A stretch of 59,436 nt of DNA. Origin: Bacteroidales bacterium. Its GTDB lineage: Bacteria; Bacteroidota; Bacteroidia; Bacteroidales; Muribaculaceae. Under the pieces are notes generated by a model. That model had not been told where the DNA came from. It made no database searches and saw nothing but the letters and a program-made list of their open reading frames with translations. The DNA lies in assembly GCA_020859845.1 (NCBI GenBank), contig JAJBVL010000062.1, positions 1-59,436 of the forward strand. Direction: 5' to 3'. Position 1 is the first letter of the stretch. The number at the start of each line of letters is the position of its first letter. The translations under genes were made by a program, and so were the position numbers. This document shows, one piece after another, positions 1 to 19,339 of this stretch.

Positions 1-430
1 CGGCAGCGTCGAGCGCGTCTTGGAGTTCGGCCTGGCGAGCTATGAGTGCATCCATCTTGTCGGGGTCTTCCAGCACTTCTGGGTCGCCGAAACTCTCGTT
101 GACCTTGTCAAACTCAGCCAGGAGGTCCATGACAGGCTTCACGCCTTCGCGCACCACCTCGATCACCGTCTTGTCGGGGTCGAGCTGTGGCTCTTGCTCA
201 AGGTAGCCCACGGAGTAGCCGGGCGAGAACACCACTTGACCTTGATAACTCTTGTCGAGGCCTGCTATAATCTTAAGAAGCGACGACTTACCCGAGCCGT
301 TTAGACCTATGATGCCAATCTTGGCACCGTAGAAAAACGACAGGTAAATGTCCTTCAACACTTGCTTCTGGGGAGGGTAGGTCTTGCTGACGCCTACCAT
401 TGAGAATATTATCTTCTTATCGTCTGCCAT
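1..430 (-). CDS. ettA: Energy-dependent translational throttle protein EttA, ABC-F family (N-terminal part, runs off the window)
   Basis: Reading leftward from the ATG at 430 gives an open frame beginning MADDKKIIFSMVGVSKTYPP that continues past base 1, so only about 143 N-terminal residues are present. The Walker A motif GLNGSGKSS and the stretch GYLEQEPQLD, followed by VREGVKP, are typical of EttA, an ABC-F ATPase without membrane segments that binds the ribosomal E site and gates elongation by ATP/ADP ratio. The second ABC domain and the inter-domain linker lie outside the window. It lies on the same strand as def and ruvX, separated from def by a short repeat tract. Another ABC-F paralogue is the only realistic alternative. 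Confidence 0.9.
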   Translation of the reverse strand, partial: MADDKKIIFSMVGVSKTYPPQKQVLKDIYLSFFYGAKIGIIGLNGSGKSSLLKIIAGLDKSYQGQVVFSPGYSVGYLEQEPQLDPDKTVIEVVREGVKPVMDLLAEFDKVNESFGDPEVLEDPDKMDALIARQAELQDALDAA

Positions 431-506
431 TGACTATTTAACTTTTGACTTTTGACTTTTGACTTAATACTTGACTTTTGACTTTTGACTTAATACTTTT
501 GACTTA
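431..506. repeat. Degenerate tandem repeat of TGACTTTT between ettA and def
   Basis: The spacer is almost wholly built of the 8-base unit TGACTTTT and variants. Two longer blocks ending in TTGACTTAATAC (about 441-470 and 471-496) follow each other. It contains no gene. Whether it is a neutral slippage tract or affects expression of ettA cannot be told from sequence. Confidence 0.75.
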
Positions 507-509
507 ACC

Positions 510-1073
510 TTACTTTTTCTTGGGAGCGTATCGCACCGGGTATTCGCAGCGGGTCTTGCCCGTGACGATGTTGTTGAGCTTGCCGCGGATCAGCTGCTTG
601 CGGATGGGCGAGATACGGTCGATGTAAAGTTTGCCTTCGAGATGGTCAAGCTCATGCTGGATAATGCGAGAGAGGAAGCCCGTGAACTCTTGCTCGTGGG
701 GCTGGAGGTCCTCGTCGAGCCACTTGAGGCGTATATGCTCTATGCGACCCACGTTCTCCGACAAGCCTGGGAGGCTCAAGCAACCCTCGCTACGCGTCTC
801 CTTTTCGCCATCGAGGATCTCCAATTCTGGATTGATGATGGCCATCTTGGAGTCGGCACATTCAGGGAAGTTCTCGGCCAGCGGCGAGCCATCCACCACC
901 ACAAGGCGCAGCGCGCGCCCTATCTGTGGGGCGGCGAGGCCCACACCGTCGGAGGCATACATAGTTTCATACATATCCTCCACCAATTGCTTAAGGTCGG
1001 GATAGTCGGCGGGGACATCCGTGGTAGGTTTGCGGAGCACAGGATGGCCGTAGAGATATACAGGGAGTTTCAT
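510..1073 (-). CDS. def: Peptide deformylase
   Basis: The 187-aa protein removes the formyl group from the N-terminal methionine of nascent proteins in the cytosol. All three family motifs are present: GVGLAAPQ at residues 43-50, EGCLS at 96-100 with the metal-binding Cys98, and HELDH at 140-144 with both metal-binding histidines and the catalytic Glu141. Length is normal for the family. Its ATG overlaps the TGA of ruvX by four bases (ATGA), so the two genes are very likely translationally coupled and share the promoter upstream of ruvX. Confidence 0.97.
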   Translation of the reverse strand: MKLPVYLYGHPVLRKPTTDVPADYPDLKQLVEDMYETMYASDGVGLAAPQIGRALRLVVVDGSPLAENFPECADSKMAIINPELEILDGEKETRSEGCLSLPGLSENVGRIEHIRLKWLDEDLQPHEQEFTGFLSRIIQHELDHLEGKLYIDRISPIRKQLIRGKLNNIVTGKTRCEYPVRYAPKKK

Positions 1074-1552
1074 TCAGTGTCGTGGATGTTGAGGTTGGTG
1101 TTTTGAATATCTTCTTTTGGAATATCTAAGGAGTCTTTGTAGGCTTTGCTTTCGAGATAGCTATTGAGTATAATCACGGCGGCCATGCGGTCGACCACCG
1201 CCTTGTCGCGGCGCTGCATCTTGCGCATTCCCGAGTCGAGCATGCTCTGATGGGCCATGGTGGAGGTGAAGCGTTCGTCCCAAAAGATAATAGGCGTCTG
1301 GGGGATGGCTTTGCGCAGTTCACCAATGGCGGGTCGTAGGTAGCGCTGGCTATCGCTGGGTGCGCCGTTGAGGTTGACAGGGAGGCCCACAATGATGGCG
1401 TCTACTTCATTTTCAGCCACATACTTTTTGACTGAGGGAATCAATTGGCGCGTGTCGACAGTGGCAAGAGCCGTGGCCACTATGCGCAAAGCGTCAGTGA
1501 CGGCGATTCCACATCGCCGTCTCCCATAGTCTATAGCCATCAGTCGTCCCAT
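1070..1552 (-). CDS. ruvX: RuvX/YqgF family putative pre-16S rRNA nuclease (Holliday-junction-resolvase fold)
   Basis: The 160-aa protein has the RNase H-like YqgF fold: MAIDYGRRRCGIAVTD at the N-terminus carries the first catalytic Asp, IIVGLPVNLNG forms the second strand, WDERFTS carries the conserved Asp-Glu, and DRMAAVIIL with Asp near residue 130 completes the site. The family takes part in 16S rRNA 5'-end maturation. It is the first gene of a two-gene unit with def (four-base overlap). A promoter sits directly upstream so that the mRNA would begin only a few bases before the ATG. Confidence 0.92.
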   Translation of the reverse strand: MGRLMAIDYGRRRCGIAVTDALRIVATALATVDTRQLIPSVKKYVAENEVDAIIVGLPVNLNGAPSDSQRYLRPAIGELRKAIPQTPIIFWDERFTSTMAHQSMLDSGMRKMQRRDKAVVDRMAAVIILNSYLESKAYKDSLDIPKEDIQNTNLNIHDTE

Positions 1553-1560
1553 ACAAGGTC

Positions 1561-1591
1561 CAAAGTTACTAAACTTTCACGTAATTACCAA
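1561..1591 (-). promoter_or_regulatory. Bacteroidota-type promoter for ruvX-def
   Basis: On the minus strand TAACTTTG (1568-1561) matches the TAnnTTTG -7 element. A TTG lies 20 bases upstream (1591-1589). The predicted start site is within a few bases of the ruvX ATG at 1552, so the transcript would be leaderless or nearly so. Confidence 0.7.
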
Positions 1592-1618
1592 CCACCCAAC
1601 CTACTCCCTTTCCCGTAA

Positions 1619-1993
1619 TTAGCCTATGCTGATGGTTTTGCCAAAGGGGGCTATCGCCAAGCCGGCCATTTTGAAGTGCTGTTTACCCCAAGGGATGCCG
1701 ATAATGGTGATGCAAAGCAACACTCCCCACAGGAGGTGGTTGAGCGCGGCCCAAATGCCGCCAAAGATAAGCCAGATTACGTCGAGGATGAAAGCCAAGC
1801 ACCCCGAAGGTGAGTCGGTGGAGGTCACCTTCGAGCCGAATGGCCATAGGCACAGAACGCCCAGTTTGAGCGTCTGTAAACCCAGCGGTATGCCAATGAT
1901 AGTAATCATCAGGGCCACGCTGCCAGTAAAGTAGCCGATGGCCGCTTCGAGGCCACCAAAGATAAGCCAGATGATATTGCCAAGAATCTTCAT
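1619..1993 (-). CDS. YccF-domain small inner-membrane protein
   Basis: The 124-aa protein has two tandem copies of the YccF (DUF307) unit: NIIWLIFGG then ITIIGIPLG in the first half, and VIWLIFGGIWAALNH then ITIIGIPWGKQ in the second. Each half forms hydrophobic segments, giving about four short membrane spans. The C-terminal APFGK motif is also typical. Family members are inner-membrane proteins of unknown role. It stands alone, upstream of ruvX on the same strand but outside the ruvX promoter. Confidence 0.88.
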   Translation of the reverse strand: MKILGNIIWLIFGGLEAAIGYFTGSVALMITIIGIPLGLQTLKLGVLCLWPFGSKVTSTDSPSGCLAFILDVIWLIFGGIWAALNHLLWGVLLCITIIGIPWGKQHFKMAGLAIAPFGKTISIG

Positions 1994-2243
1994 AGTGTTA
2001 ACTCTTTAAACCTGTTGGTGAACAACTCTTACGCAAAGTTCGTAAAAATTCTTGACATAGGTAAAGAATTTCCCCTAAATAAGATAAACGACAAAGGCAA
2101 TGCTGAAATCCACCAAGACTTGCTTGCTATGGCTTACATAATTCAACCAACTGGTAGTAGTCCTATCCCTTTTCTTAAAAAAGTAAATTCTATTTCAAGC
2201 AGAGGGCTGAGAATTGAGAATTATGATTTAATTCTTTGGTGGG

Positions 2244-2275
2244 TTTGGGAGTTTAAGAAGTTTTAAGTATCTTTG
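2244..2275 (+). promoter_or_regulatory. Strong promoter for the VWA/tubulin/protease unit
   Basis: TTTG at 2244-2247, a 20-base spacer and TATCTTTG at 2268-2275 match the Bacteroidota promoter consensus exactly. It precedes the VWA gene by about 50 bases. The rest of the gap from 1994 is AT-rich; I see no gene or terminator in it, and the 83-codon frame inside it has no family signal. Confidence 0.8.
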
Positions 2276-2324
2276 GGGCGCTGATTTCCTCGGCACGACA
2301 CACATTTCTTCATTTATCTTGACC

Positions 2325-4028
2325 ATGAAACAGGTAAGAAGCCTCCGCCATATACTTCTGGCGCTGTTAGGCCTGCTGGCGGCAATGCCAGTGGGAGCAC
2401 AGCGCGAGCAAAACGTTGTGTTTCTCTTCGACTGCACCAAGTCGATGAAAGGCTACAACGGCGCCCCCGACATATGGGAAGGAGCCAAAGCGAAGCTCCA
2501 CAACGACCTACAGCGCCGTCCCGAAGGCACGCGCGTCACAGTGATACCCTTCCAAAACGCCCCGCTGGAGACATATACCTTCGTGGCCCCCGACTACGAC
2601 TGGGCAGCGTTGGAGCAGCGACTTGACCGCTATGTAGAGAATGTAACCAATACCAACCTTATAGCTCCCTGGCGAGAGGCTCAAAAGCTGCTCGACCCTC
2701 AGCTAAAAAATAGCATCTACGTCATCACCGACGGCGAACACAATATGGAAGGCGACTGGGGCGCGGAGCTCCGCAGCTGGTGTGGACAGCAGGATAATGC
2801 CCGCGCATTCATCGTGGAGCTTACAGAGAACGCCACCAACCCCGTAGTGACCGAGATTGCTGAAAATTGTCCCAACATCCACCGTGTGGCTCCAGGTGTG
2901 GACGATGTGGTCTACAGCGAGCCAGCGGGTCTTCTCGACTTGGAACTGGTGGCCAGCCCCGATGGACAGATGCTGATGCTCACCACCGACGTGATTACCG
3001 AAAAACAGATGGAAGTAAGGAGCCTTGACCCCAATATCACGGTAGAGCCAGGTGCAACCGTAGAAGCTAATACTCCCTTGACCTTCCGACTGGCCCCGGG
3101 TGTGGACTACGATTCGCTGAGCGAACAGCTGCCACGCACATTCTCCTTCGAGATAGCCTCGTCGTGTCCCGGCTTCCGCATGGTCAATCCACGCTTACCA
3201 GTGTCGGTGGTCAACGACCCTTCGCCCAAGGCATGGCTAACAGGCCTCGACCCCGAAGAGACCGACATAGGCACGACCAGCTGGTACGACAAGTTTCTTT
3301 GGAGCTCGGCTGCCGAGCCAGCACGTGCTGCCGTCGACCTCGCCCCTCGCTTCAACAAGAGCGCACGCCAAGAGGGAGCAGCCTTTCGCTATGGCGTGGA
3401 AGGCAAGGACGGATTTCAGGACTTCAAGGTGAGATACAACGGCGTGGAAAGTCCCGACCGCACTTTCGTTGTGGCGCCTACCGACCCCACCTCTACCCTT
3501 GAGATAGAATATACCCCCGAAGCCTCAGAGGGCAAACACTACTTCACCATCTACCCTATGAGTGTCGCTGGCACAGACTACGACCTTCGCGGCAAGCACT
3601 CCGTGGACTGGAATCCCCTGAAGACCTTCCTCTTCTGGCTTGGAGTGGCTCTGCTCCTGATGCTGATTTTATGGTTTGCCGTCATTCAGCGACAGATGTA
3701 TCCACGGATAAAGAAGGTGAGGACCATCACCGTCAACAGTCCCTACTATCGCACAGTGAAGGTGAAAGGTGCTTGGCGAGTCACTTTTACCGCCAAGCCT
3801 CAAAGTCAAGGTATCCTAAGCCGCATCTTTAAAGGCAAGGAGGTCAACCATTCCAACCCAGCATGGTCTACCCCTCTCACCTTCCGGCCCACGAAGAAAG
3901 GTCTGTCAACCGACCGAGGCCACGGCGTATGGTCAATCAACCCTGCCTCATCTTCTCTCCAACCTCGCAACGAGTATACTCTCATCAACAATCAGACAAA
4001 AGAAAAAATCCAAATATCACTTACCTGA
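2325..4028 (+). CDS. Membrane-anchored von Willebrand factor A domain protein
   Basis: I choose the ATG at 2325 over an in-frame TTG six bases earlier. The 567-aa product starts with a signal peptide (hydrophobic core about residues 9-20, cleavage likely after PVGA). A VWA domain follows directly: VVFLFDCTKS places a MIDAS-type DxTxS at D36, T38 and S40, and VITDGEHN supplies the TDG motif near residue 136. Residues about 200-430 are beta-rich and extracytoplasmic. One membrane span (about 435-455, FLFWLGVALLLMLILWF) precedes a basic C-terminal domain of about 110 aa, predicted cytosolic. It is first in a unit with a tubulin-like gene 24 bases downstream. VWA domains bind protein ligands through a metal ion; here the partner is unknown. 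Confidence 0.88.
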   Translation: MKQVRSLRHILLALLGLLAAMPVGAQREQNVVFLFDCTKSMKGYNGAPDIWEGAKAKLHNDLQRRPEGTRVTVIPFQNAPLETYTFVAPDYDWAALEQRLDRYVENVTNTNLIAPWREAQKLLDPQLKNSIYVITDGEHNMEGDWGAELRSWCGQQDNARAFIVELTENATNPVVTEIAENCPNIHRVAPGVDDVVYSEPAGLLDLELVASPDGQMLMLTTDVITEKQMEVRSLDPNITVEPGATVEANTPLTFRLAPGVDYDSLSEQLPRTFSFEIASSCPGFRMVNPRLPVSVVNDPSPKAWLTGLDPEETDIGTTSWYDKFLWSSAAEPARAAVDLAPRFNKSARQEGAAFRYGVEGKDGFQDFKVRYNGVESPDRTFVVAPTDPTSTLEIEYTPEASEGKHYFTIYPMSVAGTDYDLRGKHSVDWNPLKTFLFWLGVALLLMLILWFAVIQRQMYPRIKKVRTITVNSPYYRTVKVKGAWRVTFTAKPQSQGILSRIFKGKEVNHSNPAWSTPLTFRPTKKGLSTDRGHGVWSINPASSSLQPRNEYTLINNQTKEKIQISLT

Positions 4029-4052
4029 CCTATACCCATACTCACCACTACC

Positions 4053-6818
4053 ATGGCAACCAAAATAAGAAGATGCCTCTTCGTAGGCCTCGGAGGCACA
4101 GGCATGACCTCACTCCTCCACACCAAGAAAGCTTTCATCGACACCTATGGCGAGGTGCCTCCAATGATAGGATTTCTGGGCATCGACACCGACGGCGGTG
4201 CCTTTGCTAAGACACTCAACACCGTGGCAGGCCCCGTAGGCCTCCTCCCCTCGGAGCAATACTCCAGCACGATGAGAACGCCTGAGGACACCTTCCGCAA
4301 CAACAAATCGAAGTTTGCCTGGGTACCCGAGGGCAACAGTGGCGCTCTGGCCTCACTCAAGGGCCGCGGCGCTGGCGCCAAGCGCTCCAGCGGCCGCTTC
4401 TGGCTAATCAACCAGATGAATGGCAACTCAGGCCTTGAGGCACAGATACGCGCGGCCTTGGCACGCATCACCTCAAGCGCTAACAATCGCGACCCTCGCT
4501 ACACGCTGCTCAGCGACGATGTGGAGGTCCATCTGGTGTTCTCGCTCTGCGGAGGCACCGGCGCTGGCACCTTTATCGACATGGCCTACATGCTGCGACG
4601 CATGGTGGGTGCCCGTGCCAAGATCGCTGCCTACGCTGTGCTCCCCGACGTGTTTGTCAACCAGTCGCCCTACGGCACAGAGAACGTCAAGCCCAACGCC
4701 TATGGGTGTATCATGGACCTTGACTACCTTATGCGCCTCTCGCCCGAGAATGAGCCCATCGCCGTGGAGTATCTCGACAAGAGCGTGGAGTTTAAGCAGC
4801 GCCCCGTCAACGCCATCTTCCTTATCGACAATAAGAATCAGAACGGCGACAGTTTCAACAACGTTGACCAGCTCGCCGAGATGATCTCGCTGGCACTCAT
4901 CACCGCCGCTGGCCAACTCTCCGACGCTGCAGCCTCGACGCTCGACAATATCGACGTGACCATCAATGAGGCAAACTCGCGCGCCGGCGCCAACATAGCG
5001 TGGGTGAGCACCATGGGGGCCTCAGAAATCGTGGTGCGCTCGTCGATACTGGAGCGTATCTATGCCATCAAGGCAGCCCGCTACCTCATCGATCGCCTGC
5101 TCCACTCCGACATCGACTGCAGCGCCCTGGCCAACGCCTGGATTGACAATCCCCGAGTAAACATACGCGAAAACAATGGCGACGAGAACAATAACGTCAT
5201 CGACTTCTTGATGGCGCGCGACTATGAGTATCCCTACGAGGAGATTGCCGACCCCGACAATCCTATGCCCGAAATCCAAGTATATCTCAAGAGAGCCGTC
5301 CCCACAGCCGACGAACAGACCCGTCGCCGACAAGAGAAGACCGAGAGCGTCAACAACGAGCTTAGCGACTTTGTGCGTACCAATCTTTCCTCTGATGGAG
5401 GCGTGGCAAAGACGCTCGAGACCTTGAAAGCTATCCGCTACCAGGTCAACGACCTCTTCCTGAAGGAAATGAAAGATGAGCTCAACGACCTACAGAAGCA
5501 AGACCGGCGCTGCGAAGAAGACCTAAAGACCGACATCAACGAGATGCAGGCCGCCTCAGGATTTTTCACCTCGCGCGCTCGCAAACGCGACTCAAGAGCC
5601 GCAGTGGTCAACACTGTCAATACCTGGGCCACCGTGAAGCGCGAGATAATGCGCCACAATGGTGCCATCTCCTTCTTCAACGGACTGCTCGCTGAGCTCG
5701 ACCGCCATATCGAAGTGGTGGAGGGCATCAAGAGTAAACTCAAAGCCGTTGACAACGACCTTGAAAACGAGGCTATGCGTCTGCAAAACCTCTCATCTAC
5801 CACCGCCGAGGTAAATGCTTTCAGCATCGACCTTACTGGGCGCGAGGCTCTAAGCGTGGCTATCAATCACGACGAGGTGTCGGTCGACGAATATCTGACA
5901 GAAGGGGGCAACTCAATAGAGGCCTTCGCCGCCCTGTCGCAAAAAGAGATAGGCCAGCGGCTTACAGCCTTTGCCTCCAAGCTCAAAGGCGCTCAGCGCC
6001 TCAGCACGCTGTCGGTCAACGATGTGCTTGCGCGTATCAACCAGCAGCAACCGGGCTCACTCACCTTTATCATCGACCGCGCCCTTAAGGGTGCACGCCC
6101 GCTGCTCGCCTTCGACGACCGCGGTTATCCCAACGAAGCCTCCACTATCTCCGACCTCTGCTTTATAGGCGTTGGCGATAAGGACAACAACGTGATAAGC
6201 TCCGAACTGCTGATGCTTCGCGATGGCTCAGCCAAGCCACAAGTGGTGTCGACGGGTATGAAAGACCGTGTAATCATATATCGTCAGCAGGGTGTGGCCA
6301 AGGCATTCATGATTGGTCCGCTGCTCACCTATGAGACGGCCTACCGGAAGAACCCCGACACGTATCATGCCACGATGGAAATCAAGAGCCTGCTCGACCG
6401 CGAGAAGTGGACGCTCATGCCCAAAGCTGCCACCGACGATGCTCACGAGATATGGGTGAGGGCTCTGGTCTACGGCCTCGTGAAGCGTGAGGAGGGACGC
6501 TATTGGTATTACAACCGCGCCGAGGGCGAAGCTCTGGACGACTATATGTGTGAACTCGCCAGCGACCGCGTCAAGGCCTTCTCAAAATTCCGCAAGAAGC
6601 TCGATGCTGTGCGCGACAGCTATCAAGAGCGCTTTGACGACCACAATCGCCAGCAGAGCATGGAGGAGCGCAAAGAGCTGCGCCGCGACGTGAAAGCCAA
6701 CTACCTTGAGAAATACTCCCAACTGGAGGTAGACCGCTCAGCTCTACGCGACCCCATCAATAAAGAGCTCCGCGACCTTCTCAACAAAGAAATAGAATTT
6801 GTAAACTCGCTCGAATGA
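4053..6818 (+). CDS. Tubulin/FtsZ-like GTPase (Tubulin_2-type), 921 aa
   Basis: The N-terminal third reads as a tubulin/FtsZ GTPase: FVGLGGTGMTS (residues 11-20) at the T1 nucleotide loop, FLGIDTDGG (41-49) at the position of the FtsZ NTD strand, and CGGTGAGT (166-173) as the tubulin signature loop. FLIDNKN, then VDQLAEMISLAL, follow at the position of the late nucleotide-contacting helix. I find no clear copy of the T7 catalytic NxDxxD loop. The rest, about residues 420-921, is mostly helical and charged with probable coiled coils (about 460-600 and 850-921), far longer than FtsZ. There is no signal peptide or membrane span, so it should be cytosolic. Its TGA overlaps the ATG of the protease gene (ATGA), indicating coupled translation. 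It resembles FtsZ relatives proposed to work with VWA proteins in membrane remodelling; function here is inferred. Confidence 0.85.
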   Translation: MATKIRRCLFVGLGGTGMTSLLHTKKAFIDTYGEVPPMIGFLGIDTDGGAFAKTLNTVAGPVGLLPSEQYSSTMRTPEDTFRNNKSKFAWVPEGNSGALASLKGRGAGAKRSSGRFWLINQMNGNSGLEAQIRAALARITSSANNRDPRYTLLSDDVEVHLVFSLCGGTGAGTFIDMAYMLRRMVGARAKIAAYAVLPDVFVNQSPYGTENVKPNAYGCIMDLDYLMRLSPENEPIAVEYLDKSVEFKQRPVNAIFLIDNKNQNGDSFNNVDQLAEMISLALITAAGQLSDAAASTLDNIDVTINEANSRAGANIAWVSTMGASEIVVRSSILERIYAIKAARYLIDRLLHSDIDCSALANAWIDNPRVNIRENNGDENNNVIDFLMARDYEYPYEEIADPDNPMPEIQVYLKRAVPTADEQTRRRQEKTESVNNELSDFVRTNLSSDGGVAKTLETLKAIRYQVNDLFLKEMKDELNDLQKQDRRCEEDLKTDINEMQAASGFFTSRARKRDSRAAVVNTVNTWATVKREIMRHNGAISFFNGLLAELDRHIEVVEGIKSKLKAVDNDLENEAMRLQNLSSTTAEVNAFSIDLTGREALSVAINHDEVSVDEYLTEGGNSIEAFAALSQKEIGQRLTAFASKLKGAQRLSTLSVNDVLARINQQQPGSLTFIIDRALKGARPLLAFDDRGYPNEASTISDLCFIGVGDKDNNVISSELLMLRDGSAKPQVVSTGMKDRVIIYRQQGVAKAFMIGPLLTYETAYRKNPDTYHATMEIKSLLDREKWTLMPKAATDDAHEIWVRALVYGLVKREEGRYWYYNRAEGEALDDYMCELASDRVKAFSKFRKKLDAVRDSYQERFDDHNRQQSMEERKELRRDVKANYLEKYSQLEVDRSALRDPINKELRDLLNKEIEFVNSLE

Positions 6819-9800
6819 GGCATACCATAGCCCTATACATAGGAGCCGGAGCAGCTCAAAGCGCCAAGAGCGCTGGAGAGCAAGCTCAAGGCGCCGGCCG
6901 CTATCTCTCTATAGCCACAGCCCTCCCCACTGATGAAGGGCTTGTGGCCGTGGAGGTAGAGGGGCGCGGCGAAGAGGTGCAGACTATTGAGCCTACACCG
7001 CAAGCTTGGAACACCCTGCTCGGGAAAATGCATCGTCGCCGTGTGACCATAGAAGATGCGGGCGACGACAGCCGTCTGCTGCTTGTCATAGTCACTACTG
7101 CTGCCGCTGCCGATATGGCAATTGTCAACGCATTGGCAAAGGGAGCCTCGGCCGACCTGTATGAGATTGACCTGATAGTGCTCACGGCCTCCTTGGCTGA
7201 TAGCGCTCTTGGGCTTTCAGGTGGCGAGGGAGAAGCGCCAGCGGTGGCGCAGCATTTGGCAGCTCTTAGGAAAGAGTTGCCCGTAGTGGGCCATGCTATG
7301 ATAATGGACAATATCAATAGCTGTGGACGGTCGGTGACGCTCGACGCCTCCTCGATAGGGGTACTCACTGGACGCCTGGGCGTACTTTCAGCCATCTGCT
7401 ACACGTCGCTCTACTCGGCCAATCTTGACCTCGACGGCCTCAGCCCTATCTTGGGGATGGGTATGTCGACAGTGATGTTTGACCGTCAACTCTTCGCCGA
7501 CTACCTCCTGCGTCGCACCCTTCTCAGCGCTATGGAGCGCGAGGGAGTGGAGCAGACATCGGTAGATGTCAACTCGGCTGTCAACAAAGCCAACGAGTTT
7601 GTAGGCTCTTGTCGTCGTGAGATAGATGATTTTTGGGAGAAGTATGTCGACAGCCGCAAACTCGAATCGGCCGACGACCACTATATCGTAGAAGAGGCCG
7701 TGGACAGGCTTGGCGACATCTTTCGCGGCATCAATAAGGGCTTTACCGACGTGATGCACGATGAGAGCCTGTCGCTTGCCGACAAGCGAGCATTCATAGC
7801 GGCCCTGCTCAACGATGACGACCCTCTGCTTTCAGGCTTACAGTTTGACACCCATCAAGGCGACATCTCATCCTTGACCGAGCGACAACTCGACTTCTTT
7901 GCCGAGATAGACCGCGAGGGTGCCATCTTTGAACGCAACCTTAAGAGAGCCGAGACCGGCGAGGATTATCCCTCGTTGGCTCCATTTCTCAAGGTGGCGA
8001 TGCCTATCGACAATGGCACTCTCACGCAACGCATACGCAGCCTGCGCCACTCTATCAAAGGCTCAGCGCGCTATATGCGGTCGCTCCAGACCGACATCGA
8101 CCGCCAGCGCAAGGTGCTGGCCGAGGAACGCCGAGCAGCCAACATCGTCATGCCAGAGCATGGTGAGCTTCTGGAGAAGGTCGACGATCGTCTGCTCGAA
8201 GAGACCTTTAAGGCCGCTGAGGGGCTGGAGATGCCCGAAAGCGTTGACCTGCGCGAGTGGTTTCTCGCTGCCGAGGACCAAGGGAAGCAAGGAGCATGCT
8301 CAGCCTTTGCCGTGACGGCTATGATGGAGTATATGCTGCGCCGCTCTAAGGGAGAGGCTGTTGACCTTAGTCCCGCCTACCTCTATTGGCAGACACGCCA
8401 ACTCCGCGGCCAAGCTCATGGCGACACAGGGGCTACCCTCTACGACGCCATCACTGCTGCCGCTGAAAAAGGCGTAGCCTTGGAGGCACTTTGCCCTTAC
8501 AACCCCCGCAAGGTGGCCTCCCAGCCATCAGAGACGGCCGACAGTGACGCTGCAGAGCGCAAGGTGGCAAAGGCCTGCAATGTGGAGCGCACGCCCGACG
8601 CCATCAAGCAAGCTCTCGCCTCGGGCTATCCCGTAGGCGTGTCGCTGAAGGTGAGCAAAAAGATGGGCGAAGACACAGCCTATATCTCCCTCCCAGGCCC
8701 CAACGAAGCCACAGGCTACCACGCCATGGTGGTGGTGGGTTATAGCGAGAAAGGGCGTTTCTTCATCGTGCGCAATTCGTGGGGCACCTCGTTTGGCGAC
8801 AAAGGCTACTGCTACATCCCATATCGCTACATGGCCGACTCGTCGCTGCTCAACGCTGCTTATGTCATCACCGAGATAAAAGGCTTGGGGTCGTTGACCC
8901 AGGAGCAGAAGGCCGTGAAGCCTCTGAGCGTCTCTATCCAGTCGACAGATGCTCAGATTATCGTAGCTGTCAACTCGGAGCTATTGGAGGACGAGAAAAT
9001 CAAGCTCTCAGAGCTACAAAATGAATATCAGAAACTGATGAGCCTCCACACCACTATGCGCTCCCAACTTTCCAACGAGCGTGTAGTGGCTGAGCTTGTA
9101 GAGAGCTGCCGGAGTGCCATCCGGAGTAAAGTCGCCTCTCTCAAGCGAGAGATCGACAGCGAGCAGTCGGGACGCCAATCAGCGTTGAATCTGCTGCGCC
9201 ACAACTGGAAGTACTGGGCGTTTACCGTTGTGTGCTACACTTTGGCAGCTGCAATAGTGCTTGTCACTATGGTGCTGATGGGTAGCTCCAAATGGTATTG
9301 GCCGGCAATCTTCACTGGTATAGGTGTCTTGGCTATGGTGGTGCAATGGGGTGTCTACAAGCATCAACGCGCCAAGATACGCCAAGAGTATGACGAGAGA
9401 ATAGCCGAACTCACGGATAAAACCACCGAGGAGACTCGTCGCCACGACCGCCTCGCCATGAGAGCCAACATTGCTGCACAGATGCTACTGAAGGCCAACG
9501 AGTTTGTGGCAAGGGTCAAGGAAGATGGGACGGCCATGAAGAAGTATTGCGACGGCCTGGGGCAATGGAAGAAAGCACTTCAACGAACGCTCGACGGACT
9601 GAAGACCACGCTTCGCGCTCCTATCCTGCCTGTAGCGGATCTCCAGGTGCTTGACCGATATTATGCCAACGAAGCTGATGGTCTGGCCGAGGAGGTGAAG
9701 CTCCATGAAATTTTTGAGACGTATAGCGCTCGCCTCAAAAACCAAGCCGACCAGCAAGGCGAAGAGGAGGTGATGAGAGCGCTCGAAGATGAACTATGCA

Positions 9801-10168
9801 CGACTGTCAGGGCCAAGCTCTTGGAGCGTACAGCCGATTTTTCGATGCTGGATTATCTCCTTGGCGACAGAGAGTATAGCTACCTGCCCGAGCCCAATCC
9901 TTCGGGCCTGATGGGCAGCATGGTGGCCATGTCGTATCCCATGGTGGCAATTCGTCCGGCCTTGGGGCGTAACAATGAGCCTATACGCCTATTGCTGGCC
10001 ACCGTAGGCGAGGGGCAACGCGACCGCTGGCAAGACTTGGCTTATCGTTGTTGTCGCTCGATGCCTATATCTATCGACCTTGGCAAGCAAGGCGACGCAA
10101 GCGTCACGATGCTCTCCATCCAGCCACTGATGGTCGAGGAAATCGTCTCGCCCGCTCTCATCTTCTGA
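6815..10168 (+). CDS. Papain-like (C1) cysteine protease fused to coiled coils and a two-span membrane region, 1117 aa
   Basis: Residues about 475-690 form a complete papain-fold domain: DQGKQGACSAF holds the oxyanion-hole Gln489 and nucleophile Cys495, GYHAMVVVGY holds His636, and VRNSWGTSFGDKGY holds Asn654. The first 470 residues are an alpha/beta region I do not recognise (LLLVIVTTAAAAD, IGVLTGRLGVLSA) followed by helices. After the protease come a coiled coil (about 710-790), two membrane spans (about 801-824 and 831-850), a second coiled coil and a C-terminal domain. With no signal peptide and a basic stretch after span two (KHQRAKIRQ), both ends are predicted cytosolic, which would place the protease in the cytosol beside the tubulin-like partner. 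Its ATG overlaps the stop of that gene. Papain-type enzymes are usually secreted, so this layout is odd. An adaptor role without proteolysis is possible but all catalytic residues are kept. Confidence 0.85.
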   Translation: MRHTIALYIGAGAAQSAKSAGEQAQGAGRYLSIATALPTDEGLVAVEVEGRGEEVQTIEPTPQAWNTLLGKMHRRRVTIEDAGDDSRLLLVIVTTAAAADMAIVNALAKGASADLYEIDLIVLTASLADSALGLSGGEGEAPAVAQHLAALRKELPVVGHAMIMDNINSCGRSVTLDASSIGVLTGRLGVLSAICYTSLYSANLDLDGLSPILGMGMSTVMFDRQLFADYLLRRTLLSAMEREGVEQTSVDVNSAVNKANEFVGSCRREIDDFWEKYVDSRKLESADDHYIVEEAVDRLGDIFRGINKGFTDVMHDESLSLADKRAFIAALLNDDDPLLSGLQFDTHQGDISSLTERQLDFFAEIDREGAIFERNLKRAETGEDYPSLAPFLKVAMPIDNGTLTQRIRSLRHSIKGSARYMRSLQTDIDRQRKVLAEERRAANIVMPEHGELLEKVDDRLLEETFKAAEGLEMPESVDLREWFLAAEDQGKQGACSAFAVTAMMEYMLRRSKGEAVDLSPAYLYWQTRQLRGQAHGDTGATLYDAITAAAEKGVALEALCPYNPRKVASQPSETADSDAAERKVAKACNVERTPDAIKQALASGYPVGVSLKVSKKMGEDTAYISLPGPNEATGYHAMVVVGYSEKGRFFIVRNSWGTSFGDKGYCYIPYRYMADSSLLNAAYVITEIKGLGSLTQEQKAVKPLSVSIQSTDAQIIVAVNSELLEDEKIKLSELQNEYQKLMSLHTTMRSQLSNERVVAELVESCRSAIRSKVASLKREIDSEQSGRQSALNLLRHNWKYWAFTVVCYTLAAAIVLVTMVLMGSSKWYWPAIFTGIGVLAMVVQWGVYKHQRAKIRQEYDERIAELTDKTTEETRRHDRLAMRANIAAQMLLKANEFVARVKEDGTAMKKYCDGLGQWKKALQRTLDGLKTTLRAPILPVADLQVLDRYYANEADGLAEEVKLHEIFETYSARLKNQADQQGEEEVMRALEDELCTTVRAKLLERTADFSMLDYLLGDREYSYLPEPNPSGLMGSMVAMSYPMVAIRPALGRNNEPIRLLLATVGEGQRDRWQDLAYRCCRSMPISIDLGKQGDASVTMLSIQPLMVEEIVSPALIF

Positions 10169-10187
10169 CCCTCTAAAAATCGATAGT

Positions 10188-11480
10188 ATGACCCCAAAAT
10201 CTACAAAGCCATTCTCGCTGGTAGAAGCCAGAGACAATCAGAAGGCTGTAAACAGGCTATCGAAAAGAATGGAGGAAGAAGACGCCCTCAGGAGAGCCTA
10301 TGGCCTCTTTTGTGTCAGAAATCTTCAAGATGATTGTGCTTTCTCCAAGCTCCACTTTCTCCTCTTTGTGCGGCAGCACTCTGACCACAAGCAGGAGAGT
10401 CTGCTTCAGTTTGCCGAGTCGTTCACCGAGTGGCCAGAGATTACTTTCCCCGAAGTGCTAAGCGAGGCTGTGGCAGCATTCGATCCCGACGCTCGCCCCA
10501 TCAGCCCTTCGTCAAAAGGGAAGAATAGCAATGTCACCACAAAGAATGAGATTGACCGCCATCGGGAAGAGCTTTCTCAAATCCTAAAGTTAAAGGGCCT
10601 CACTGTGGGTCACGAATGCTTTATAGATGTCAACTGCATTTTAGGGGAGATTGAGATAAACTCCGCTGCGCCTTACCACCTCTTCTTGACTCCCTCCTTT
10701 GAGATCTTTGCCATTGATAGTAATGGCAGTGTCCTTCCTGTAGAGATGGAGGTATGGGGTAAGTTGATTTATTTCATTGCTGCTTATGAGGGAAAAGTAT
10801 CCTTTACCGACTCCAACTGGGGGAATCCTTTGAAAGGCCTCGTAAAGCCTCTTTTAAAACAATATAACTTCTATGACAAATTGAACCATAAATTAAGGTC
10901 GGTGGCAATCACCAATCTAAAAGAGCTCCAGGAGAATTGGGAGAAAGCTTTTAAGGAAATGAAAGAAGGGGAGAAAATCAGCAACGCCAACGATGCTCTG
11001 CAAAAGGTCTTAGGTCAGGAGTGGGCATATGACTTTAAATTATTCGCTCTGGAAAAAGGCTCAGAAGAAGCGAAGATTGTCAATCCTACCACCATACTTC
11101 TAGAGAAGGATTTTGCAAAGTGGTGGGATAAGTGGGAAACCCTAAAGCGCCAACTTCCCAAGAAGGATTCTGACTTAGAAAAAGCTGTTGAGTTTGCCGA
11201 CTCGTGGCTGCCTCTCAAGCTCTATGGTACCCTTTATCACGAAGTAGTAGCCAAGGACCTACACGCCCTCGAGGAGGCGCTTAAGCAAGAGCTCGATGAT
11301 GTCACAATAATGGAGGAGTATGCAAAATTTCACGAGGACCAGAAGAAAGAGCACGGAGAATCCAATTATCTCGACTACCAGCTTAGGGTATTCGCACAAT
11401 CTCTTATGCTAAAAGGCTACTCTCAGGCCTTCATCTGTGGCATTTTCCGAAATTCCGATTCTAAACTCACTTTGGAATAA
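10188..11480 (+). CDS. Protein of unknown function, last gene of the VWA/tubulin/protease unit
   Basis: I do not recognise this 430-aa protein. It lacks a signal peptide and membrane spans and is helical and charged. A middle part reads like a compact alpha/beta domain (HECFIDVNCILGEIEI, YHLFLTPSFEIFAID) and the C-terminal half like helical bundles (LKELQENWEKAFKEM, HALEEALKQELDD). It starts 19 bases after the protease gene with no promoter or terminator between, so co-transcription is likely; a terminator follows at 11513. From about 10600 the codon choice becomes more AT-rich than in the three upstream genes, which may mean a separate origin. It could be an accessory or effector of the upstream three proteins. 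Confidence 0.7.
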   Translation: MTPKSTKPFSLVEARDNQKAVNRLSKRMEEEDALRRAYGLFCVRNLQDDCAFSKLHFLLFVRQHSDHKQESLLQFAESFTEWPEITFPEVLSEAVAAFDPDARPISPSSKGKNSNVTTKNEIDRHREELSQILKLKGLTVGHECFIDVNCILGEIEINSAAPYHLFLTPSFEIFAIDSNGSVLPVEMEVWGKLIYFIAAYEGKVSFTDSNWGNPLKGLVKPLLKQYNFYDKLNHKLRSVAITNLKELQENWEKAFKEMKEGEKISNANDALQKVLGQEWAYDFKLFALEKGSEEAKIVNPTTILLEKDFAKWWDKWETLKRQLPKKDSDLEKAVEFADSWLPLKLYGTLYHEVVAKDLHALEEALKQELDDVTIMEEYAKFHEDQKKEHGESNYLDYQLRVFAQSLMLKGYSQAFICGIFRNSDSKLTLE

Positions 11481-11512
11481 GCAGCTCTTAAATTCTTAAT
11501 ATAAAAGCGTTT

Positions 11513-11546
11513 GGCCTTTTCAATCTTTCACGAGATTGGAAAGGCC
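11513..11546 (+). terminator. Terminator of the VWA/tubulin/protease unit
   Basis: GGCCTTTTCAATCT and AGATTGGAAAGGCC form a 14-bp stem (one G-T pair) around a six-base loop, followed by a T-rich run (ATTTTGTCGTTTTC). It lies 33 bases after the stop of the 430-aa gene. Confidence 0.8.
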
Positions 11547-11880
11547 ATTTTGTCGTTTTCAATTTTCCTACCTTTGCGCTATGACAACCAACCATCCCAC
11601 CCCCTCCGCAAGGAGATCGCCATTCCAGCAATGGGAAACACATACTCTCTAGAGAGCATTCTCCGCCTTTGGAGGATGGACAACGTAATGCCCCGGTCGC
11701 CTTGTCAATGGGATGGTAATGGCGACTGGCACTATGAAGTCCATCCTCCTTTCTTCTGCATTGGCATCCTAAGTGGGGAAAAGTGTAGTCCGACCACACT
11801 TCTCCATAGGTAATAAAGCAAAGGTGCAGATTTTTTGAGCTGTAATCCAAAATCTTCTTCTCCCCAGCAATAATCCATAT
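11547..11880. other. Gap without a convincing gene; promoter-like element and weak dyad
   Basis: TACCTTTG at 11569-11576 matches the -7 element on the plus strand, but the nearest TTTG (11549-11552) is only 16 bases away. It would drive a 23-codon frame at 11581 (MTTNHPTPSARRSPF...), not recognised. An imperfect inverted repeat lies at 11781-11801. The 135-codon minus frame and the 100-codon plus frame across here look like chance: neither has domain-like composition and both cross the terminator region. Confidence 0.4.
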
Positions 11881-11905
11881 GCTTGTGGTCCACAAGCGTG
11901 TGGAC
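11881..11905. repeat. GTGGTCCAC palindromes downstream of an ATPase gene
   Basis: GCTTGTGG-T-CCACAAGC (11881-11897) is a perfect dyad. It overlaps a second one, GTCCACA-AGCG-TGTGGAC (11888-11905). They lie 16-40 bases after the stop of the ATPase gene read leftward, with no T-run following, so a protein-binding site is likelier than a terminator. The core TTGTGGTCCACAA is also the centre of the palindrome at 14445-14479. Confidence 0.65.
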
Positions 11906-11920
11906 TTCTTATGCTTCAGA

Positions 11921-13066
11921 CTAAAGCTTTAGGATTTTACGGCGTAGCCATAAGCCGAAAATCTGGTCATAGATGGTATAGGTGGAGTCTTCACGAGTGA
12001 TAAGATCCTTTTCAAGCAATAGCTTTGTTGTTGAAGCCACAGCGCTTTGCGAGGCCAGTTTATGGCGGCGGATAAAGTTTGCGCTATTTATTTCGTGGGC
12101 TTCTACATCTCGTGCTATCGCCAAGAGAAGTTCGCGTTGACGCTCGCTCAGCTGGTTGAAAAGGGTGGAATATCCCTCGTGACCGTTGTCTATGAGCTTG
12201 CAAATGGCTATCTCTACATCCTCTATAGTGCCTAACCCATCTTTAGGGGTAAGAAGGAAGACCTCGTTGAGCACTTTGTGCATGTATAGAGTAATCCCTC
12301 TGAATCGCTCATAGACATTGTCTACCACTTCGGGGGCAAGACGTTTACCATAGGCTTCAAATAGCCTCTGGCAAAACTCCAAATACCTATCCTTTGGTAT
12401 GGGAGCCAATCCCAAGAGAGTAGCAGATTGGAAGAAAGGTCGCGCGCCCGAGGTAAACATCTCCGCCATGAGATGTCGGTCTGATCCTGCAAAGATAAAG
12501 CGAGTATTGGGACTGTGTTGAACATAGCTTCGTAGCAACGCCTCGACTCTCGATCCATTAGGATAATTAGTTATCTGCTGAAACTCGTCGATTGCCACTA
12601 TACATGGGATTTTTGCCGCGTTAAGGTAATGGAATATCTCATCTAAGGTGATTTCAGGCTTTACCGATGGCCCAAGTCCGACTCCCCACACTGGCATCCC
12701 TTGAAAATCAAGAGAAATCTCTGAGCGAAGCGAGGTCAACATCTCTACAAATTTCTCAATAGCGCCTCTCCCCTTTGGCTTAAGAGCGTCGGTCACTGCT
12801 TTACCAAAGGCTTCTATTAGCTCTGAAAGATTTCCCGTTGGGTAAGCATCAACATAAATGCCCAGATACTCTTCTTGTATCTCCTGTTGGGCAAAAAGAT
12901 GACTTATAAGATCGGTCTTCCCTATACGGCGCTTACTTGTCAGCACCACATTGTTGCCGTTGGTCAGAAGTTCTATCAACCGAGAGGTCTCCTCTTCCCG
13001 ATCGCAGAAATATTGTGGCCCGTCATAGCCATTGATTACAAACGGGTTTTTACGCGTCAGTTCCAT
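11921..13066 (-). CDS. ATPase of the archaeal-type ATPase_2 family (AAA/STAND-like), first copy
   Basis: The 381-aa protein has a Walker A variant SKRRIGKT (residues 44-51), a Walker B CIVAIDEFQQI with D160 and E161, and FIFAGSDRHLM as a sensor-1-like strand. The C-terminus (about 310-381) is a winged-helix-like region with SQSAVASTTKLLLEKDLI, and the protein ends LWLRRKILKL. This layout matches the ATP-binding proteins common in Bacteroidales as several paralogues, whose function is not established. It has its own consensus promoter. A paralogue with Walker motifs at the same residue numbers lies upstream on the same strand, and GTGGTCCAC palindromes follow its 3' end. Roles in defence or mobile-element maintenance are guesses. 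Confidence 0.85.
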   Translation of the reverse strand: MELTRKNPFVINGYDGPQYFCDREEETSRLIELLTNGNNVVLTSKRRIGKTDLISHLFAQQEIQEEYLGIYVDAYPTGNLSELIEAFGKAVTDALKPKGRGAIEKFVEMLTSLRSEISLDFQGMPVWGVGLGPSVKPEITLDEIFHYLNAAKIPCIVAIDEFQQITNYPNGSRVEALLRSYVQHSPNTRFIFAGSDRHLMAEMFTSGARPFFQSATLLGLAPIPKDRYLEFCQRLFEAYGKRLAPEVVDNVYERFRGITLYMHKVLNEVFLLTPKDGLGTIEDVEIAICKLIDNGHEGYSTLFNQLSERQRELLLAIARDVEAHEINSANFIRRHKLASQSAVASTTKLLLEKDLITREDSTYTIYDQIFGLWLRRKILKL

Positions 13067-13083
13067 ACTCTGCAGTTTTACAG

Positions 13084-13114
13084 CAAAGTTACCAAAATTA
13101 CTCCACGCAACAAA
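13084..13114 (-). promoter_or_regulatory. Promoter of the first ATPase gene
   Basis: On the minus strand TTTG (13114-13111), a 19-base spacer and TAACTTTG (13091-13084) match the consensus. The ATPase ATG is at 13066, giving a leader of about ten bases. Confidence 0.75.
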
Positions 13115-13196
13115 TTTTCCACAACAGTTTTTTCACAACAGAAATATTGTTGCGCGTATTATTCTTTTCCGCCCCCTGTGCGGCAGCTTTCGCAGT

Positions 13197-13219
13197 GCAG
13201 CGGCCCTCCGCTGCTCTTT
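13197..13219 (+). terminator. Orphan intrinsic terminator between two minus-strand ATPase genes
   Basis: GCAGCGG (13197-13203), loop CCCT, CCGCTGC (13208-13214) and then TCTTTTT make a textbook plus-strand terminator, yet no plus-strand gene precedes it. Read on the minus strand the T-run is absent. It might end an unrecognised small RNA starting near 13100-13180, or be a relic. Confidence 0.5.
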
Positions 13220-13287
13220 TTGAGCCAGCCCTCTGGCCCCCACAAGTTTTCAACGTTAATAGGAGGCGAGTGCGTTGCTCAATGACG

Positions 13288-14418
13288 CTATAGACAGTTG
13301 GAACGAAACCAGAGGGCGAAAAGTGGGTCAGCAAGATAGAGACCATCGGAGCGCTCTTCTATCAGCTCCTTCTCGATGAGAGAGGACTGGAGACGGGCGA
13401 CGTTTGACTTGCTTCCGATGCTATACTGGCTCAAGATCTCTTGCCGAGTGAAGCCTCTATTCACCCCTTGAGCTATAGCCCTCAAGAAATTAAGATGGTA
13501 GCCGCTAAGGGAGTTGATTTGCTGCTGGAAGAGAGCGCTTGTCTGAGCCTTCAGCGCTTCAAGGCCAGCTTCATAAGCCTGTGCGTCGGCTTCGTAGTCG
13601 GTTTCCGCATAGACATTCCATGCCAACTGCTGCACGTAGGAAGAGTAGCACTCCGTCACTTCGCATATCTTCTCGCAAAGCGCCTTGGAGATGGTCTTCC
13701 CTCTGCTCTCAAAGCGCCGCTGAATATATAGCACCCATTCGCCAATAGGTATTTTCTCGAGAATCATCATCTCGCCAAACATATAGAAGGGCATCCTCTT
13801 GTTCTGAAAAAGGTTGGTCATCAGATGACGCTTGCTACCAAAGAGGCAATAAGAACATGACTGCTGATGCTGCCACACTCCTCTGAAGCGCTTTTGTATC
13901 GTCAGCGACTCTGTCAATTCTCCTATCTGTTGAAACTCATCTATGCAGATCACCAACCGCTTACCCCTACGCTTGGCTACCTCCTCTGGCAATTGGAGAA
14001 TTTCCTCGGGAGTATGATTGGCTGGACTTAATCCTAAGGATAGGGAATACTCCCCACCCGGCTCCGTGCCAAAAGAGATTTTTGGAGTGATGCGAGAGAG
14101 GAACGTCCGGGCCATTTCAAGCCAGTGTTCCACCTTTGTCGACGACTGCTGAATGACCGCCGCAGCAAGTTTGTTGTAGAAGTCGTATTCCGTGCGGCAA
14201 TCATACACGTCTAAGTATACTGGAATGACTGCGCTTGTATCTGGAAGCGAGGCGATAGCCTTCTTCACCAGGGAGGTCTTACCCATGCGGCGCGGGGATA
14301 TAAGTATGGTGTTGATGCCATTCTCAAAGTTGAGCACCAAGCGTCGGGTCTCTTTCTCGCGGTCGGTGAAGTTCTCCCCCTCCACGGCCGTCCCGTATGC
14401 AAATACCTTCTCGTTCAT
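13288..14418 (-). CDS. ATPase of the archaeal-type ATPase_2 family, second copy
   Basis: The 376-aa protein has Walker A SPRRMGKT (residues 41-48), Walker B LVICIDEFQQI with D160 and E161, and CLFGSKRHLM in the sensor position, so it is a paralogue of the protein at 11921-13066. The C-terminus holds a winged-helix-like region with GSKSNVARLQSSLIEKELI, then RSDGLYLADPLFALWF. The promoter directly upstream is overlapped by a 35-base palindrome, which suggests control by a dyad-binding protein, perhaps the ATPase itself. A degraded copy of its 3' end lies at about 18545-18600. Confidence 0.85.
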   Translation of the reverse strand: MNEKVFAYGTAVEGENFTDREKETRRLVLNFENGINTILISPRRMGKTSLVKKAIASLPDTSAVIPVYLDVYDCRTEYDFYNKLAAAVIQQSSTKVEHWLEMARTFLSRITPKISFGTEPGGEYSLSLGLSPANHTPEEILQLPEEVAKRRGKRLVICIDEFQQIGELTESLTIQKRFRGVWQHQQSCSYCLFGSKRHLMTNLFQNKRMPFYMFGEMMILEKIPIGEWVLYIQRRFESRGKTISKALCEKICEVTECYSSYVQQLAWNVYAETDYEADAQAYEAGLEALKAQTSALFQQQINSLSGYHLNFLRAIAQGVNRGFTRQEILSQYSIGSKSNVARLQSSLIEKELIEERSDGLYLADPLFALWFRSNCL

Positions 14419-14422
14419 GACA

Positions 14423-14454
14423 CAAAATTACTAAAAGTCTTCCGAGTTCACAAG
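14423..14454 (-). promoter_or_regulatory. Promoter of the second ATPase gene
   Basis: On the minus strand TAATTTTG (14430-14423) is a TAnnTTTG element just ahead of the ATG at 14418. CTTG (14454-14451) stands 20 bases upstream as the -33 element and lies inside the palindrome at 14445-14479. The start site would leave almost no leader. Confidence 0.65.
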
Positions 14455-14479
14455 TTTGTGGTCCACAAACTTGTGAACT
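14445..14479. promoter_or_regulatory. 35-base perfect palindrome, candidate operator
   Basis: The left arm AGTTCACAAGTTTGTGG (14445-14461) and its exact reverse complement CCACAAACTTGTGAACT (14463-14479) flank one T. It covers the -33 region of the second ATPase promoter and lies between two divergent ATPase genes. Its centre TTGTGGTCCACAA recurs at the 3' end of the first ATPase gene. Confidence 0.75.
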
Positions 14480-14664
14480 TTGTCAACTCCAGTCCCTAAA
14501 AAGAATTTTTTCAAAAACTTTCGTGGAATAGGCCCTGCCGACATCTCGTCGAAGGCTACGGGCATTATCTCCACCTGTAGGTCGATACGATTCCATGATT
14601 GGGCTCTGAGTCCTTTTATAGCCTGACAAAGAAGCTTAAATATTGTTAACACCAAGATTCCTTT
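14480..14664. other. Intergenic stretch with a protein-like minus-strand frame
   Basis: Between the divergent ATPase genes, about 14510-14640 is richer in GC than its surroundings. On the minus strand it reads LRAQSWNRIDLQVEIMPVAF, then DEMSAGPIPRKFLKKFF, which looks like the end of a real coding sequence. It runs through the palindrome and has no sensible start, so a gene remnant is more likely than an intact gene. The family is not recognised. Confidence 0.35.
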
Positions 14665-14696
14665 ATTGACTGATTCGTTAAAAACCGCTACCTTTG
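14665..14696 (+). promoter_or_regulatory. Promoter of the third ATPase gene
   Basis: ATTG (14665-14668), a 20-base spacer and TACCTTTG (14689-14696) precede the ATG at 14737 by about 40 bases. Confidence 0.65.
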
Positions 14697-14736
14697 CAGG
14701 GTAAAAATCTGTTTTTCCATAAAAATTACCCCCGAA

Positions 14737-16032: not shown

Positions 16033-16073
16033 ACTCATTAATGAAAATTTCCCCCAAAAATTGGGTCATAAAT

Positions 16074-16105
16074 TTTGACATCAAGGAAAAATGATAGTAA
16101 CTTTG
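16074..16105 (+). promoter_or_regulatory. Promoter of the BspA-like gene
   Basis: TTTG (16074-16077), a 20-base spacer and TAACTTTG (16098-16105) match the consensus exactly. Transcription would start near 16111, about 380 bases before the coding start. Confidence 0.8.
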
Positions 16106-16111
16106 CGATGA

Positions 16112-18402: not shown

Positions 18403-18424
18403 GAGACATAGATTGGTGCATAAT

Positions 18425-18491: not shown

Positions 18492-18544
18492 TTTCAACAA
18501 TCTTTTCACCGTCAATTAACAACGGAGTGGGTCGCTTAATGCCA

Positions 18545-18600: not shown

Positions 18601-18641
18601 CAGTCAGCTTACAATCAGTCATAAAGAGGGAAGTTTACTTT

Positions 18642-18974: not shown

Positions 18975-18983
18975 AACTTTAAA

Positions 18984-19319: not shown

Positions 19320-19339
19320 CGATTGTAATATTAACTATG

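Follow-up and report, generated by a model that had tools for sequence, protein, structure and literature searches.

A conserved operon of VWA, tubulin-like GTPase and papain-type protease genes in Muribaculaceae, and a possible coupling of tubulin-like assembly to proteolysis

What might a tubulin-like GTPase do when its gene lies between those of a VWA protein and a papain-like protease? This question is raised by an operon in a 59,436-nucleotide stretch of DNA, referred to here as the window, from a Bacteroidales bacterium of the family Muribaculaceae (contig JAJBVL010000062.1 of assembly GCA_020859845.1, which has 2.9 Mb in 112 contigs). Genes coding for a VWA protein, a tubulin-like GTPase (Tub), a large protein with a papain-like domain (the protease protein) and a fourth protein (gene 4) follow one another there on the same strand. 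Tub belongs to the FtsZl1/Tubulin_2 family. When this family was described in 2010 (PMC2875224), its function was proposed, in the sections of the paper covered here, from gene context alone. Our preferred reading, to which we assign a probability of about 0.45, is that of a three-gene, patchily distributed inner-membrane system in which an assembly of Tub with a membrane-held pseudo-GTPase paralogue would switch on proteolysis.

The conserved unit is three genes, coding for the VWA protein, Tub and the papain-type protein, and not four. This is seen in 25 loci that were selected for carrying Tub (the window, nine earlier loci and L068-L082). Left out of this set were L005, a 3.4-kb contig with Tub only; L066 and L067, which are the same contigs as L002 and L003; the distant tubulin-like genes of genomes G048 (L011/L014) and G240 (L017/L023) and of phage record L026; and the plasmid loci of Thermales and Azospirillum. 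No match to the protease protein was obtained by tblastn in L011, L023 or L026. The original prediction had proposed a co-occurrence check of the four genes in Bacteroidota. The part concerning the first three genes held up, as they occur in the order VWA, Tub, papain-type gene on one strand in 20 of the 25 loci, window included, with gaps of at most 113 bases between VWA and Tub and between Tub and the papain-type gene (for L071 measured from tblastn ends). The part concerning the fourth partner did not, as this gene was found, among all genomes and records searched, in the window's genome only. Taken singly, the VWA gene is present in 24 of the 25 loci (in L071 by tblastn; L006 begins inside Tub) and a papain-type third gene in 21. 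For L079 the contig carries the N-terminal part of the papain-type gene, and a second piece is located elsewhere in that genome, on a different contig. A papain-less third gene, with no match to Peptidase_C1, occupies this place in three loci (L021, L022 and L080), and the L082 contig ends inside Tub. In L004, L007, L080 and L081 two adjacent genes together code for the VWA protein. In addition, the VWA gene of L003 (1236-3164) is broken by an in-frame stop, and its counterpart in L002 is open. Distances among Tub proteins and among protease proteins are closely correlated across 20 loci (r 0.95, Mantel 0/2000), to which shared species history contributes.

Gene 4 behaves differently from its three neighbors. 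It has no Pfam family over the cut-off and no match in NCBIfam, PADLOC or PHROGs, and it was not found in 60 relatives, nor in plasmids. Its G+C content is 45.7% as compared with 55.5-56.7% for genes 1-3; that of the neighboring gene at 11921-13066 is 46.4%. We therefore rejected this orphan, seen only in the window's genome among all that were searched, as a component of the system. A four-gene machine would account for the position of gene 4, 19 bases downstream of gene 3 and ahead of the terminator, and is nevertheless highly improbable given that gene 4 was not found next to the cassette at any of the remaining 24 loci, nor in the 60 relatives, and differs in G+C; as a conserved set it is refuted. 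Gene 4 is best read as a co-oriented passenger behind the same promoter.

When analyzing the distribution of the system among genomes, we searched at the level of genus, family, order, class and phylum; the samples share members, and the window's own genome is counted in every one of them. Within the window's family 19 of 297 genomes, representing 10 of 30 genera, were found to carry Tub. The corresponding figures are 3 of 34 for the genus, 3 of 393 for the order, 2 of 395 for the class and 2 of 395 for the phylum. A search of the same family with a protease-protein alignment gave 21 of 297 genomes at E 1e-10. The full-length papain protein is present in 18 of these 297 genomes, all of them among the 19 with Tub (that of G1069 is split over two contigs). 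In the nineteenth, G1005, the Tub locus (L080) has a papain-less third gene and a C-terminal fragment lies apart from it, and two more, G900 and G946, contain partial protease-protein matches near contig ends with no listed Tub. The cassette's nearest named relatives, with a Tub that is 67% identical, are in two 'Bacteroidales bacterium' assemblies that belong to the family (G862 and G822). Outside of the family, Aestuariibaculum (A. sediminum TT11, L004) and Brumimicrobium (B. glaciale IC156, L007), two genera of the Flavobacteriales, carry cassettes, and a Marixanthomonas contig has Tub and the papain gene. The patchy presence together with differing neighbors in most genomes fits an accessory operon. 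The yqgF gene, which adjoins the window's cassette, is present in all 34 genomes of the genus.

The VWA protein matches Pfam VWA_2 over the cut-off (E 5e-07), and in its metal-site pattern D-x-T-x-S / T / D the residues D36, S40, T110 and D136 are invariant in 8 of 8 aligned proteins. It has hydrophobic stretches at amino acids 6-25, at the N-terminus, and 430-459 (by hydropathy only), and a C-terminal tail with a QGxxxRxFxG-like motif. Tub matches Tubulin_2 (PF13809) with E 5e-51 and 174 bits against a cut-off of 27. The GTP loops GLGGTG and GGTGAG are intact in the window protein; among the aligned rows the former loop, as G[LIV]GGTG, is present in 24 of 25 (L079 is cut at that point) and the glycine-rich T4 loop, as GGTG[ASC]G, in 25 of 25. 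No hydrophobic segment was detected in Tub by hydropathy, and a search by sequence for solved relatives of Tub found none.

The papain-like domain of the protease protein retains its catalytic Gln, His and Asn in all 20 readable domains and its catalytic Cys in 19 of them (L079, cut before the domain, was left out). The closest solved relative of this domain by sequence is xylellain (PDB 3ois, E 5e-23), which is also the top Foldseek row, at 26% identity, for a full-length model of the protein with a mean predicted local distance difference test score (pLDDT) of 66.5 and a poorly modelled papain region. Xylellain is a stand-alone chain of 291 residues, whereas here the papain domain is embedded within a membrane protein. 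Across 20 loci mean pairwise identity is 41% for the papain part as compared with 21% for the N-part and 20% for the C-part, and this far better conservation argues for selection on the peptidase.

Papain domains of the xylellain-like type are also frequent on viral contigs in IMG/VR, where 139 relatives of the protease protein were confirmed. In the 80 of these 139 that were kept (L093-L172) the matches lie round the papain part, covering amino acids 351-724 at the widest; no piece of a match is wholly outside amino acids 430-725, and the same 80 contigs gave no match to VWA, Tub, the third protein or gene 4. A phage or viral origin of the system was considered and rejected, as no Tub relative was confirmed in IMG/VR and one weak relative was found in phage records.

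The protease protein had originally been predicted to cross the membrane twice. Our membrane calls are from hydropathy only. In the protease protein two stretches, 86-108 and 799-825, are over the cut-off, and the second segment of the hairpin, about 829-850, is recognized by eye; the full-length model has a helical hairpin at H755-822/H828-928. Stretch 86-108 falls inside a modelled strand-helix unit and so is probably buried domain core. With just one of the two hairpin segments over the cut-off, the double crossing is likely and not proven. There are basic residues on both outer flanks of the hairpin and no N-terminal hydrophobic signal which, by the positive-inside rule for membrane topology, would place the papain domain on the cytosolic face.

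We also asked whether the parts of the protease protein on either side of the papain domain are related to Tub. The N-part scores 35.5 against the Tub N-part profile, where the best of 200 column shuffles reached 26.3 and the best of 60 block shuffles 27.8, and the match falls at the motif region IDNxNxxG...GxS. The C-part scores 41.3 against the Tub C-part profile (best of 60 block shuffles 27.7), and five decoy profile comparisons, made with the VWA profile and of N against C, scored 15.8-27.1. These matches are collinear, with columns 167-290 and 859-1093 of the protease-protein profile corresponding to columns 256-394 and 510-744, respectively, of the Tub profile. Combined into a profile, the third proteins of L021, L022 and L080, which have no papain domain, match the N-part with a probability of 85% (P 6e-6). 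Genome G900 furthermore codes for a 585-amino-acid papain-less protein (L091:5143-6900) that matches both the N-part (P 1e-13) and the C-part (P 1e-21), lacks the membrane stretch, and adjoins genes that by eye resemble ftsY and rimO. There is no Tub listed for G900, and its genus-mate G885 is papain-bearing. Since the L091 protein keeps both halves without the papain middle, the protease is a removable module. Collinear matches to Tub above all shuffles together with a papain-less scaffold raise the possibility that the protease protein is a tubulin paralogue that has degenerated. From these profile comparisons we put the chance that it is a diverged paralogue of Tub at about two in three, in which case a xylellain-like protease may have been set into a degenerate tubulin paralogue. 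The glycine-rich GTP loop is absent between strand 88-95 and helix 98-112 of the window protein and, by eye, from its aligned relatives. Without this loop the protease protein would not bind GTP in the usual way and would be a pseudo-GTPase.

A mechanism that would connect the three proteins is as follows. The VWA domain, located outside of the inner membrane, would bind a ligand and transmit a signal by way of the one membrane segment and the conserved tail of the protein. Tub, the GTPase, would then form a polymer or an oligomer together with its membrane-held pseudo-GTPase paralogue, and the assembly would gather papain domains on the cytosolic face and thereby switch on cleavage, in a manner that can be likened to apoptosome-like scaffolds activating caspases. 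Its likeliest role would be that of a response induced by envelope stress or by invading elements. The polymer-controlled proteolytic machine of the original prediction is a reasonable inference in this light, and is strengthened by the profile evidence for paralogy. The more specific proposal of apoptosome-style activation on a tubulin fold, with a VWA sensor setting the Tub/pseudo-tubulin assembly and so gating intracellular proteolysis, is tentative and on balance unlikely.

Several results weigh against proteolysis switched on by a Tub assembly with a pseudo-GTPase paralogue. The hhalign probabilities for the protease protein versus Tub are modest at 20-43%, and they were 2-5% with the first eight-row profiles. 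Only one of 26 proteins (20 N-parts and six papain-less third proteins) touches Tubulin_2, with E 0.19, and no papain-less third protein taken singly, L091 included, matches Tub. A model of the N-domain by itself has a pLDDT of 46.8. In the Foldseek search with the full-length, eight-sequence model there is no tubulin among the best 50 of 305 rows, and integrin-I and TFIIH-type folds are found at E 0.03 or worse, rows that probably belong to the N-part. In addition, the papain domain of L070 has Ser at the aligned Cys site, with a Cys one residue earlier, no mobile element carrying the cassette was identified, and most Bacteroidales copies lie among housekeeping-looking genes with no obvious defense neighbor by eye. 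The Foldseek rows (E 0.03-0.06) would also suit a different explanation, in which the N-domain is an unrelated Rossmann-like fold, for example a VWA-like one, and Tub is a non-polymerizing GTP switch that controls a membrane protease. However, against the profile of the operon's own VWA protein the N-part gives P 0.44, as compared with P 0.001 against the Tub profile and with collinear support from the C-terminus, and we regard this explanation as improbable.

The removable nature of the protease also bears on whether the operon codes for a membrane-remodeling or cell-shape cytoskeleton of the FtsZl1 type, with Tub polymerizing together with the VWA protein at the inner membrane and the protease only maturing or turning over components. 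The VWA plus FtsZl1 core and the membrane anchors are the same as those described by Makarova and Koonin in 2010, in the sections covered here (PMC2875224), and the existence of papain-less third proteins indicates that the protease is dispensable to such a core. Presence in 19 of 297 family genomes, in contrast, argues against a basic cell function, and within the third protein conservation is highest in the papain domain. Overall we regard a cytoskeletal role as doubtful.

Another possibility is that the system is an effector against phage or plasmids, in which killing would be due either to the protease or to the long hairpin in the membrane. In Thermales plasmids a VWA, Tub and third-gene set is located just upstream of brxL in all three cases found (L024:8378-14779, L025:8407-14761 and L083:6309-12742, with an insertion sequence element before brxL in L024), and BrxL was confirmed by PADLOC in both Thermales plasmids that were scanned. 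Neighbors of the cassette elsewhere include a C5-methylase and NERD helicase (L004), HsdM (L006) and a Cas3-like gene (L012); of these loci, L012 belongs to the window's genus, while L004 and L006 are from Flavobacteriales. Tubulin and vWA genes have also been proposed as conflict systems, in the passages covered here of PMC7159879. Finally, there are Foldseek rows for the helical pore formers AhlB, MakA and SmhB (E 0.016-0.059, low TM-scores, presumably covering the hairpin) and a weak PADLOC match of amino acids 755-975 to LeoBC (E 3e-4), although long helices of this kind yield chance matches. The housekeeping-looking surroundings of most Bacteroidales copies are a point against this possibility too, and the best PADLOC match beside the window's cassette, to PDC-S27 (E 2e-5), covers roughly 95 residues of a widespread type of ATPase domain. 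As in the cassette, VWA precedes Tub in the Thermales sets and a third gene follows, but their third proteins, of 677-686 amino acids, have no papain domain, and single-sequence profile searches show no clear similarity between them and the papain protein; with a mixed profile P was 0.002. Overall we consider an anti-invader effector somewhat unlikely, and the Thermales arrangement a possible tubulin-bearing BREX-like variant. No BREX family was matched beside the window's cassette (PADLOC, six window proteins), and a 2026 survey of BREX contains, in the part covered here, no mention of tubulin or FtsZ (PMC12839542). The neighbor scan covered 130 of the 142 flanking open reading frames passing filters (12 over 800 amino acids were left out) and lists 25 of the 100 matched families.

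With regard to known systems, the statement in the original prediction that VWA and FtsZ-like pairs had been proposed as membrane-remodeling systems agrees with what is published (PMC2875224, sections covered here). The FtsZl1 operons of that paper share with ours the VWA plus FtsZl1 pair, a patchy distribution and membrane-associated partners. They differ in that the main text mentions no protease, peptidase or papain and that the sections covered describe no neighbor as a tubulin paralogue. Kaur et al. 2020, in the passages covered, place tubulin and vWA genes among GTPase-centric conflict systems (PMC7159879). The GAP1-N2 systems described there resemble the present one in having coiled-coil tubulin-domain proteins with a membrane vWA, and two tubulin genes in the Firmicutes versions, but a TRAFAC GTPase together with GAP1 forms their core, the tubulin theme is reported for Firmicutes and Actinobacteria, and no papain fusion is described in these passages. 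Pfam searches, with no GAP1 model searched by itself, matched no TRAFAC GTPase family in the four operon proteins. A 2023 study, in the part covered, left Tubulin_2 proteins out of consideration as being sparse and divergent (PMC9871819). We recognized no description of a VWA-tubulin-papain set in a literature search mostly at the level of titles and abstracts, with supplements and subscription papers outside its scope. New here are the collinear likeness of the protease protein to Tub and the papain-less version of its scaffold, and the protease variant of VWA-tubulin pairs may be new as well; the pairs themselves were known.

The coordinates of the operon are given in Table 1. The promoter matches exactly the pattern TTTG-N20-TATCTTTG, which we take to be the Bacteroidota consensus; such sites, with spacers of 18-21, number five in the window on both strands as compared with 0.43 expected from shuffling. 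The open reading frames agree with the predicted four same-strand genes and their gaps of 24, -4 and 19 bases, and the terminator predicted at 11513-11546 coincides with a strong hairpin (folding z -6.5 for 11505-11560). What stands of the predicted clean four-gene unit is thus its layout, promoter and terminator, and what falls is the membership of gene 4, which is co-oriented but unconserved and deviant in G+C. No Rfam RNA element was detected in positions 1-15000 at the gathering score.

Table 1. Features of the operon in the window.
Feature	Position	Strand	Remarks
Promoter, Bacteroidota type	2244..2275	+	TTTG-N20-TATCTTTG, exact match
VWA gene (gene 1), open reading frame	2319-4028	+	569 amino acids from TTG; 2325..4028 from ATG at 2325
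Tubulin-like GTPase gene (gene 2, Tub), PF13809 / FtsZl1	4053..6818	+	921 amino acids
Protease-protein gene (gene 3)	6815..10168	+	1117 amino acids
Parts of the protease protein	6815..10168	+	N-part like a tubulin paralogue, papain-like (xylellain-like) domain, probable membrane hairpin, C-part matching the C-terminal half of Tub
Papain-like domain	8231..8821	+	amino acids 473-669; Q489, C495, H636, N654; Peptidase_C1 (PF00112) E 9e-21, over the cut-off
Probable membrane hairpin	9209..9370	+	about amino acids 799-852; segment 1 by hydropathy, segment 2 by eye, modelled helical hairpin
Gene 4 (orphan)	10188..11480	+	430 amino acids
Intrinsic terminator	11512..11547	+	hairpin, 16 pairs

Several genes near the cassettes are recorded here as side observations. 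To the right of the window's operon, a stretch of lower G+C (11921-20858) codes for three AAA ATPases, two of the ATPase_2 type and one of the AAA_14-DUF4143 type, and for a HipA-like protein; an AAA_14-DUF4143 gene also adjoins the cassette of M. taiwanensis (L083:4606-5772). The window gene at 27534-28778 codes for a predicted GTPase, presumably of the CobW type, with a long stretch rich in His and Asp that looks metal-binding. Behind the Flavobacteriales cassettes lies an additional gene, which in L007 matches Exo_endo_phos; in L004 (16023-20894) and L006 (6154-9954) the methylase genes follow as well, those of a C5 methylase with the NERD helicase and of HsdM, respectively. Near the Thermales loci there are WYL, helicase, methyltransferase, exonuclease or Swt1-HEPN genes.

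A conserved protease version gives the FtsZl1/Tubulin_2 family a possible readout, namely cleavage, as well as a testable partner, and the presence of papain-bearing and papain-less versions within one genus (G885 and G900) allows for their direct comparison. If real, a tubulin paralogue with an inserted protease would represent a novel link between a cytoskeletal GTPase and proteolysis.

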